Assembly (NCBI RefSeq): GCF_020181355.1
Contig: NZ_CP084004.1
Coordinates: 186,001 to 250,000 of the forward strand
DNA length: 64,000 bases
Source: Collinsella aerofaciens
Lineage (GTDB): Bacteria > Actinomycetota > Coriobacteriia > Coriobacteriales > Coriobacteriaceae
Direction: 5' to 3'
A program made the position numbers and the translations under genes. A model generated the notes under the pieces. It was given only the letters and a program-made list of their open reading frames with translations. It was not told where the DNA came from and made no database searches. This document shows, in pieces, positions 60,779 to 62,812 of the stretch. Each line of letters starts with the position of its first letter. Position 1 is the first letter of the stretch.

Positions 60779-60931
60779 TCTAAAGCCGTCGATAGACAAT
60801 CGGTGTTTACCTTAGCTCCCTATCCAAGTTAATTATCCACGCTCGTTCTCCGGTCGGGAGATTTTCTTCGCTCGCGTGTCCAGAAATCCACGCTCGAGCA
60901 GGACATCCAGGTCCGCGCCCGCCCTTGTCTC

Positions 60932-61058
60932 GATCTGTAACAGCAAGAGGCCTATTCCGCTTCTACATGTTACAGATCAAGATATTCTTAAAACACCCTA
61001 AGTTTCATCTCAATCTGTAACAGTTAGATGCCAAATATCGGTCTTGGTGTTACAGATT
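60932..61058. repeat. Two tandem 47-bp hairpin units (TGTAACA-type)
   Basis: Unit 1 is GATCTGTAACA (60932-60942) with TGTTACAGATC (60968-60978). Unit 2 is AATCTGTAACA (61012-61022) with TGTTACAGATT (61048-61058). Both loops are 25 bases, the units repeat every 80 bp, and the outer pair changes from G-C to A-T in both arms. They lie in a 533-base gene-free stretch. Confidence 0.65.
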
Positions 61059-61132
61059 TAGACAAACTGGAGGACGAGACAAACCAAAAACGGGATGGGC
61101 GCTAACCCGATGGCGCACCACCTAAATAGAAA

Positions 61133-61172: not shown

Positions 61173-61247
61173 TGGAGCCAGTGACAGGAATCGAACCTGC
61201 AACCCACTGATTACAAATCAGTTGCGCTACCGTTGCGCCACACTGGC
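61173..61247 (-). tRNA. tRNA-Thr (anticodon TGT)
   Basis: Cloverleaf on the minus strand with GCCAGTG acceptor, anticodon arm ACTGA-TTTGTAA-TCAGT and encoded CCA. It is a single gene beside the HTH-HipA fusion gene. Confidence 0.92.
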
Positions 61248-61400
61248 ACACTTGGCGCTTTCACGCGAAGCGAGTTAAGAATAAAGGAATTGCGGACGGG
61301 GCGCAACAGGCCGCACGGCGTTATACAAATATGCAAAATCCAGCAACAACGCGTACCAGGCCCGTTCATTTCTGTCAGTGCGCCCTCAATCTTAAAACCA

Positions 61401-61461
61401 TTCGCCAGAACGAATAGTTTTAATTACAATTGCTATATATAAAACTATTCGTTCTGGCGAA
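61401..61461. promoter_or_regulatory. Perfect 21-bp inverted repeat around the promoter of the HTH-HipA gene
   Basis: TTCGCCAGAACGAATAGTTT starts the left arm (61401-61421). Its exact complement is 61441-61461. The 19-base centre holds TATATAT, a good -10 element. The right arm ends 10 bases before the ATG at 61472. A repressor bound here would block transcription start, so it is probably an autoregulatory operator. Confidence 0.7.
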
Positions 61462-61471
61462 GGGTTTCGCG

Positions 61472-62812
61472 ATGCTTACTACCAAAGAAGCCGCCGAGCT
61501 GCTCGGCATCACTCCGCGCAGGGTGCAGGAGCTCATAAAAAACGGAGCACTTGAGGCCCGCAAGGCTTCTGGTGTATGGCTCATCGACAAAGACAGCGTC
61601 GACACGCGACTCCGCTCTGTGACCAAAACGGGGGGACGTCCCCGCCGCGGCCACGGTAAGAGCGAGATCGCGTTCACCCTCATGAACCGCACGTACGAAG
61701 TCGCTCAGCTGGTCTACAGTACATCGCGAAAAGACTTTACCCACATCGGTGCCGACATCGATTACGCCCACGCCCCTATTGGAGTATTTGGCCCTAATAG
61801 CCCCATATCGCTAGACTCCTTCCGCATCTGGTGGCGCGGCCGCGGTATCCCGCTCGCACGCATTGGGCTAGCCTCCCTGCTTGCAGAAGCCGCAGTCGAT
61901 GTTCCCGATGAACTCGTCCAGCGAAATCTCGGCCTCTCCTTATCCGACCAGTATTGGATTAGGCCCCAAGGTTCCGGTCTCACCTGGGAGGATATCAACT
62001 TCTTCAATAACGCCTTTGATGACGTCTCGCTGTCCATTGCACCCTTTGCCCCAGAGGGAAAAGCGGCTGCCGCAAAGCCCGATAACACCTCGGACGGCAA
62101 TCTTCAAAAGAACTGGACGTGCGAGGGCGAACGTCGAATTCTGCATAAGGCAGGAGCGCACCTGGACCAGGAACCTTATAACGAGCTGGTGGCGACCGCG
62201 CTCCACCGTCGCATCCTAAACGCCTGCGATTATGTGCCTTACTCGCTCGAGGGCACGGGCACTTCCGCCCTGAGCACATGCGATGTCTTCTTAACTGATG
62301 AAGAAGAGTATGTCCCTGCGTTCTATGTAAACCAGCACGCAAACGCAGATGAACGGCTAACCGACTACGAGCGATATGTAGCAAACTGCGAGGAGCTCGG
62401 GGTGACAGGCGTCAAGGATGCCCTTGACCGCATGATCGTATGTGACGACATCATTGCCAACTACGATCGTCATTGGCGCAACTTCGGCCTCGTGCGAAAC
62501 GTAAACACGCAAGCTTGCAGACCTGCCCCCATCTTCGATTCGGGCTCATCGCTCTGGTGCAACATATCACTAGAGGAGCTTAGGGCGGGAGAGCACAGTT
62601 TTACCAGCGCACAATTTCATTCAAGCCCCGCCAAACAAATGTTGCTCGTCGAGGACATGGGCTGGTTTGACTGCGACAAACTCGAAGGCTTCGTTGACGA
62701 GGCAATCGAGATTCTTTCCAGAAACGACGCGCTCACGGCAAGGCTGCCATATCTAAAAGAGGCGCTAACGTGGCGCCTCGAAAGAATGATCGACATCGCT
62801 GAATGGAGTTAG
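61472..62812 (+). CDS. Helix-turn-helix/HipA-like kinase fusion protein
   Basis: A 446-residue fusion. Residues about 1-50 (LTTKEAAELLGITPRRVQEL) are an excisionase/MerR-like helix-turn-helix. The remainder is like the HipA toxin kinase: K226 in RILHKAG, E238 as a possible helix partner, D332 in NYDRHWRNFGL (the catalytic D-R-H-x-x-N motif) and D356 in PIFDSGSSLW (metal-binding). No separate HipB gene is next to it; the HTH domain may replace it. ATG 61472 is preceded by GAAGG. A perfect inverted repeat at 61401-61461 covers the promoter. The HipA-type target is not known. Confidence 0.75.
   Translation: MLTTKEAAELLGITPRRVQELIKNGALEARKASGVWLIDKDSVDTRLRSVTKTGGRPRRGHGKSEIAFTLMNRTYEVAQLVYSTSRKDFTHIGADIDYAHAPIGVFGPNSPISLDSFRIWWRGRGIPLARIGLASLLAEAAVDVPDELVQRNLGLSLSDQYWIRPQGSGLTWEDINFFNNAFDDVSLSIAPFAPEGKAAAAKPDNTSDGNLQKNWTCEGERRILHKAGAHLDQEPYNELVATALHRRILNACDYVPYSLEGTGTSALSTCDVFLTDEEEYVPAFYVNQHANADERLTDYERYVANCEELGVTGVKDALDRMIVCDDIIANYDRHWRNFGLVRNVNTQACRPAPIFDSGSSLWCNISLEELRAGEHSFTSAQFHSSPAKQMLLVEDMGWFDCDKLEGFVDEAIEILSRNDALTARLPYLKEALTWRLERMIDIAEWS

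Follow-up and report, generated by a model that had tools for sequence, protein, structure and literature searches.

A self-repressing HipA/CtkA-type kinase in one chain? A helix-turn-helix fusion gene of Collinsella aerofaciens and its two predicted operators

Can a HipA-type kinase keep its own gene in check without a partner protein? This question is raised by a stretch of 64,000 nucleotides of Collinsella aerofaciens (contig NZ_CP084004.1 of assembly GCF_020181355.1, positions 186,001 to 250,000; hereafter the window), in which an open reading frame (ORF) of 446 amino acids (aa), running on the plus strand from the ATG at 61472 (61472..62812, stop codon included), joins a helix-turn-helix (HTH) domain to a kinase and follows closely upon an inverted repeat. 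We consider it likely that this gene encodes a one-chain, self-repressing kinase of the HipA/CtkA type, predicted to bind two operators that lie ~47 bp apart and bracket its promoter. The sequence evidence supports the domain assignments, the catalytic residues and the kinase fold, the operators with their constraint and their association with the HTH, and purifying selection on the gene; autoregulation by the fused HTH is, at this level, a well-supported prediction. If this is true, a HipA-type kinase in a common genus of the human gut would regulate itself with no partner protein, and would offer a minimal system for understanding how it is possible that a toxin lacks a separate antitoxin. 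One-gene HTH-HipA kinases are themselves already known.

The fused protein and its kinase kin

The first 48 residues of the protein (61472..61615; this and the following protein features are on the plus strand) form an excisionase-type HTH (Pfam HTH_17, E 4.7e-11; TIGR01764 'excise', E 6e-8), and HTH_17 was likewise found in 32/32 HTH-fused family members scanned. A first-pass annotation, made from the sequence alone, had described the fusion of an excisionase-like HTH with a HipA-type kinase whose D-R-H-x-x-N and DxGSS motifs are intact, a description that holds for domain and motifs alike: the catalytic loop D332-R-H-W-R-N337 lies at 62465..62482 and the metal-binding motif D356-S-G-S-S at 62537..62551, and both align to CtkA. 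Residues K213, K226, D332, R333, H334, N337, D356 and G358 are invariant in 12/12 rows of one alignment (A1) and 32/32 rows of another (A2), in each of which the 446-aa protein is itself one row. The stretch PDNTSDGNLQK (residues 203–213; 62078..62110), in which P203, G209, L211 and K213 are invariant in both alignments, is likely the Gly-rich loop, an assignment that we take from HipA by analogy, with G209 and K213 as the conserved positions.

The term HipA-type stands as far as fold and catalytic residues are concerned, since the protein has the HipA-like kinase fold with the DxHxxN catalytic and Asp metal motifs of the superfamily, although its closest kin lies elsewhere. By both sequence and fold the kinase is nearest to CtkA (profile match E 2.3e-14), whose core resembles it in both respects, followed by HipT and HipA. 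Residues ~66–200 (61667..62071) probably correspond to the N-terminal subdomain of HipA (HipS-like): 12/13 HipA rows aligned to the predicted model from residue 65–67 on (309–333 residues) and the remaining row from residue 50 (340 residues), these ranges giving the first and last aligned residues only. A Pfam scan of the 446-aa protein made no Couple_hipA call in this region, parts of which have a low predicted local distance difference test score (pLDDT) in the model. The gene as a whole is, to judge from a pooled dN/dS of 0.08 over 105 pairs among 15 orthologous sequences, under strong purifying selection.

Predicted operators at the promoter

The inverted repeat upstream of the gene had been described in the first pass as perfect over 21 bp and ending 10 bases before the ATG. 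A repeat search returned 28-nt arms at 61395-61422 and 61440-61467 that are 96% complementary, with a perfect core that is in fact 22 bp long (61401-61422 and 61440-61461); the distance of 10 bases is correct, the core stopping at 61461 and the ATG lying at 61472. Allowing up to 3 mismatches, a search for the arm finds it at these two places only in the window, where 0 occurrences are expected. The repeat is present, but a better description of it is a 28-bp palindromic predicted operator, AAAACTATTCG-N6-CGAATAGTTTT, that occurs twice. The first copy, O1 (AAAACCATTCG-N6-CGAATAGTTTT; 61394..61421), has 1 mismatch to the consensus; the second, O2 (61441..61468), is the same palindrome with 3 mismatches, its right half altered at the ribosome-binding site. 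This site, GAAGGG (61459..61464, plus strand), was identified by eye inside O2, 7 nt before the ATG. The centres of O1 and O2 are 47 bp apart (46 bp in 6/15 orthologous sequences).

The −10 box that the first pass placed in the centre of the repeat was not confirmed: a plus-strand consensus promoter scan returned only TCGCCA-17-TACAAT (61402-61430), at the level of the ~1 match expected by chance in the region. From TACAAT and a second −10-like stretch seen by eye, TATATATAAA at 61434-61443, we place a probable −10 region between the operators (61425..61443, plus strand), with a −35 that would fall inside O1.

Among the 15 orthologous sequences the four half-sites vary in 4/44 columns and the two cores in 6/12, and the cores of O1 and O2 are reverse-complementary in only 9/15, so that the long perfect repeat is partly a coincidence of matching cores; a functional 22-bp stem-loop was ruled out on the same count. 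The motif is specific to the locus. At ≤1 mismatch it has three matches in the whole genome, all within the repeat, and at ≤3 mismatches 37, against 43 for a reversed-pattern control; across 43 genomes of the genus the 28-bp pattern (≤3 mismatches) was found in 21, always at this locus. These genome-wide and 43-genome scans also ruled out the operator as a dispersed genomic repeat. It is highly improbable that the inverted repeat instead acts as RNA (a hairpin or attenuator) or as the end of a mobile element, with the HTH binding elsewhere: a long stem could arise by pairing of its perfect 22-bp arms, but the half-sites are kept where the complementarity of the arms is not, and the motif is not repeated elsewhere.

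The same specificity bears on a second alternative, in which the protein would be a transcription factor under the control of its kinase rather than a toxin; the kinase would serve as a sensor or autokinase that tunes DNA binding by a housekeeping or signalling regulator. A conserved and specific operator pair, strong purifying selection, and the lack of any antitoxin partner seen in the window or in an annotated relative (L122) would all suit such a regulator. With no second operator in the genome at ≤1 mismatch, however, it would have nothing evident but itself to regulate; its presence is patchy (14/43 genomes of the genus), and the gene of one relative that lacks the HTH overlaps that of a HicB-family antitoxin. 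Moreover, Escherichia coli YjjJ is described in one report (PMC9948734) as a kinase that is toxic when overexpressed. We regard the transcription factor as an unlikely explanation.

Two-site geometry across the kinase family

A profile search of 247 genomes of the order gave a match at E 1e-10 or better in 101. The family sample examined here was hand-picked among the matches listed and from loci found in other searches, and is a sample, not a census: 71 sequences of at least 250 bits were reduced to 56 at 80% identity and sorted into fused and unfused by HTH profile, and one (L124) was dropped for its short upstream sequence, leaving 32 fused members (the Collinsella gene included) and 23 unfused. 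The other fused members are 33–55% identical to the Collinsella protein.

Upstream inverted repeats were found in 18/32 fused and 2/23 unfused members at a shuffle p<0.01 (Fisher 5e-4), and in 20/32 and 5/23 at p<0.05 (Fisher 0.005). Under a two-site model, in which four half-site copies share one consensus and the threshold is the 95% shuffle level, 22/32 fused members scored above threshold, as did 2/23 of the unfused. Matching palindromic sites 43–48 bp apart, a spacing window set post hoc on the same sequences as were counted, precede 15/32 fused members and 0/23 unfused; the distance is 47 bp in seven of these 15, 45 bp in four, 48 bp in two, and 46 and 43 bp in one each. In controls, this spacing was recovered for 4/119 upstream regions of neighbouring ORFs and for 2/384 shuffles. 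The operator sequences themselves differ among subgroups (AAATACTATAAACATTTATAGTATTT in L151, for example, and AAAAATATTTCGATTTCGAAAGATT in L156). Judged by these comparisons, members with the fused HTH tend to have a two-palindrome promoter, often of constant geometry despite its differing sequence, and the occurrence of different sequences at the same spacing argues further against a repeat that acts as RNA or as a mobile end. For the unfused members, no consistent separate HTH partner was seen by eye among the upstream rows listed.

Operator conservation, the association of operators with the fused HTH and the recurrent spacing make it probable that the protein carries its own repressor, as the first-pass annotation had supposed. 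In the self-repressing kinase that we favour, dimers would bind both palindromic operators through the N-terminal HTH; these lie on either side of the probable core promoter and extend over the ribosome-binding site, and their occupation would shut transcription, the protein thereby limiting its own synthesis. That the spacing recurs while the operator sequence changes predicts a particular quaternary structure, in which kinase domains would bridge two dimers. The spacing suggests a rigid unit spanning the promoter, the two DNA-bound dimers being held together by their kinase parts in the way that HipA links HipB dimers at hipBA. A kinase that does harm would need to be expressed at a low, self-limited level. 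A trigger (phage infection, a ligand or autophosphorylation, for example) could then release the protein from DNA or activate it, and the kinase would phosphorylate a host target and slow growth, an outcome suggested by its kinship with HipA and HipT and by the parallel with YjjJ. DNA binding and dimer bridging, as well as kinase activity, toxicity, a trigger, a target and a role in persistence or defence, are inferences.

Several observations weigh against this account. Pfam HipA_C scores 21 bits and does not reach its gathering score of 30.5, a match at E 0.01 or better being present in 31/32 fused members (best 1.6e-9). No HipB-like antitoxin gene was found among the adjacent same-strand genes of at least 60 aa in the window, and none is annotated in L122, so that the label 'toxin-antitoxin' is unproven. 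Some of the upstream repeats counted lie 60–90 bp from the start (L048 and L152, by eye), and such distant repeats may be terminators of the upstream gene. Ten of the 32 fused members give no two-site signal above threshold, and seven give one at other spacings (21–31 bp); among those without a signal are L046 and L051, which at 54–55% identity are the closest relatives tested outside Collinsella and have a best spacing of 48 bp with scores of 13.5 and 10.5, below the threshold of 14.5. The raw score threshold is also exceeded by 27/119 neighbouring-ORF regions, at scattered spacings, and to the post hoc choice of window must be added that the family members are not independent of one another. 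Finally, 7/43 genomes of the genus keep both operators, 46 bp apart and with a different spacer, but lack the gene, which simple autoregulation does not explain.

History of the locus and related systems

Within the genus, an ortholog at 95–100% identity, with the operators adjoining in each case, is present in 14/43 genomes, and neither gene nor operators in 22/43. In the seven gene-absent alleles (L057–L060, L063, L064 and L072) the distance from O2 to the stop codon of the next gene is 68–69 bp. In a FastTree phylogeny built on the flanking gene region they fall at scattered positions, the pattern that repeated loss or exchange would give. A fused paralog, 37–40% identical, occurs at other sites in 13/43 genomes. 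The retention of sites without a gene would suit the RNA or mobile-element reading considered above, as would a tRNA-Thr-like stretch downstream of O2 in L059 (1430–1458): this 29-nt copy of tRNA-Thr positions 24–52 (96.6% identity, E 2e-9) is possibly an att relic. The corresponding match in five other gene-absent alleles is 13–15 nt long (E 0.025–0.4), and L063 has none. A hairpin-like stretch, TTCGCCAAAACC...GTTTTGGCGA, is also found in the gene-absent alleles, at this locus only (7/43 genomes, ≤3 mismatches).

The gene-absent alleles would find a place in a bolder form of the self-repressing kinase, which as a single joint proposal we think unlikely. In it, a family of one-chain toxins of the Coriobacteriales would have merged three functions, namely DNA binding (as in HipB), the N-terminal lid (HipS) and the kinase (HipT); kinase dimers would lock two operators ~47 bp apart, and occupancy of the DNA would mean silence of the kinase, so that the operators would be at once repressor site and antitoxin. 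Sister alleles with operators only would then be leftovers of the module, or immunity to it.

In the window the gene is flanked, on the opposite strand, by a tRNA-Thr gene and an NYN-domain gene, the latter of which also follows the kinase gene in L122. The tRNA-Thr(TGT) (61173..61247, minus strand; tRNA scan) is an intact neighbour outside the module. It precedes the gene in 5/5 Collinsella ortholog loci scanned, by 160–225 bp in four and by 1.7 kb in L041 (Collinsella sp. WCA1-178-WT-3), where the upstream flank departs from the sequence of the remaining orthologs as far as roughly O1, a pattern that an insertion next to O1 might leave. The first-pass annotation had pointed to the adjoining tRNA-Thr as a common integration site. 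The tRNA does adjoin the gene; it is whole, however, and a scan of four non-Collinsella relatives found none within ~13 kb, so that the case for an old integration at this locus amounts to a hint at most. As a general integration site for the family a tRNA was ruled out: among 17 loci scanned (the five Collinsella orthologs and 12 others, six of these over only ~4.3 kb), a tRNA lay near just one of the 12 non-ortholog loci, the paralog locus L022, with a tRNA-Leu ~350 bp from the gene.

Among known systems, E. coli HipBA shares with the Collinsella protein the HipA fold from residue ~66 on, and it too has palindromic operators ahead of its first gene. There, HipB has a gene of its own, whereas the HTH is fused here, and hipBA has four operators with centres 28, 39 and 28 bp apart rather than two at 47 bp. 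HipBST, the source of HipT, comprises three genes instead of one. In CtkA of Helicobacter pylori (PDB 3akj) no HTH aligned, the fold matches covering model residues 201–446 only; one paper (PMC5536186) describes CtkA as pro-inflammatory and its kinase activity as dependent on a type IV secretion system.

The closest parallel in gene organization is YjjJ/HipH of E. coli K-12, placed by Gerdes et al. 2021 (PMC8262856) as a monocistronic HTH-HipA kinase in clade X, with an HTH proposed as a possible cis-acting antitoxin. A one-gene HTH-HipA kinase is thus not new in kind, and the first-pass suggestion of an 'unreported one-protein' module cannot be maintained. Both proteins are encoded by a single gene and combine an N-terminal HTH extension with a HipA-type kinase, with no linked antitoxin; they differ in the HTH itself, which is HTH_17 in the Collinsella protein, whereas a Pfam scan of YjjJ called no HTH at an E-value of 0.01 or better. 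Alignment of the two was weak (BLASTP E 1.1; hhalign probability 2.3%), but E. coli HipA scores no better (hhalign probability 2.1%), so that these scores place the protein neither inside nor outside clade X. A separate origin of the HTH fusion is likely but unproven, given that the protein is not measurably close to YjjJ and that its HTH_17 type is undetected there. A search of the open-licence literature found no paper on HTH_17-HipA fusions, which is weak evidence of absence. Upstream of yjjJ/hipH itself (L185), several direct TCTATTCA repeats that precede the start codon were seen by eye; YjjJ may bind them through its own HTH.

A role in defence would make the gene a one-gene anti-phage (abortive-infection) system, its operator-held kinase unleashed by infection. 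This special case of the self-repressing kinase is a tentative proposition, somewhat more plausible than a transcription factor. The kinase region matches the PADLOC candidate-defence profile PDC-M03A (E 1.3e-14), as do 32/32 fused members; a literature text search for that name found no paper. Together with kinship to HipA, this profile is what hints at the toxin-antitoxin or phage-defence function put forward in the first pass. More distant kin occur in seven phage records and 12 viral loci, and in DS-6/HipAD, a two-gene defence system of the HipA family, mutation of a predicted catalytic residue abolishes defence, according to its description (PMC13092281). On the other hand, HipAD has a second protein, and the neighbours of the gene in L122 are ribosomal, translation and biosynthesis genes, with no defence island.

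The wider family shows other arrangements. Among 198 sampled Actinomycetota genomes, four gave a match at E 1e-30 or better, all Coriobacteriales. HTH_3 is fused to more distant kinases in Vescimonas and in one viral contig. On a Selenomonas plasmid (L123, 2660–4173) a HicB-family gene overlaps an HTH-less family kinase by 4 bp, a possible HicB-kinase pair; upstream of two viral-contig kinases lie a ParB-like ORF and an ORF that resembles Phd/YefM weakly, with a score below cut-off. Two family kinase ORFs stand in adjacent tandem in two genomes (L145 and L147). Distant kin are followed directly by a Fic-family gene on a Helicobacter cinaedi plasmid (L121, 2839–4829), and on a Campylobacter helveticus plasmid (L120, 3869–8062) by small genes and then a second HipA-domain gene and a Fic-family gene.

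The window also holds, at 60928-60982 and 61008-61062, two copies, 80 bp apart, of a dispersed palindromic repeat resembling TCTCGATCTGTAACAG...CTGTTACAGATCAAGA. A 16-mer of this repeat occurs 58 times in the genome at ≤1 mismatch (39 forward, 19 reverse), against 0 for a reversed control, and its copies, often clustered in steps of ~80 bp, form a Collinsella repeat family.
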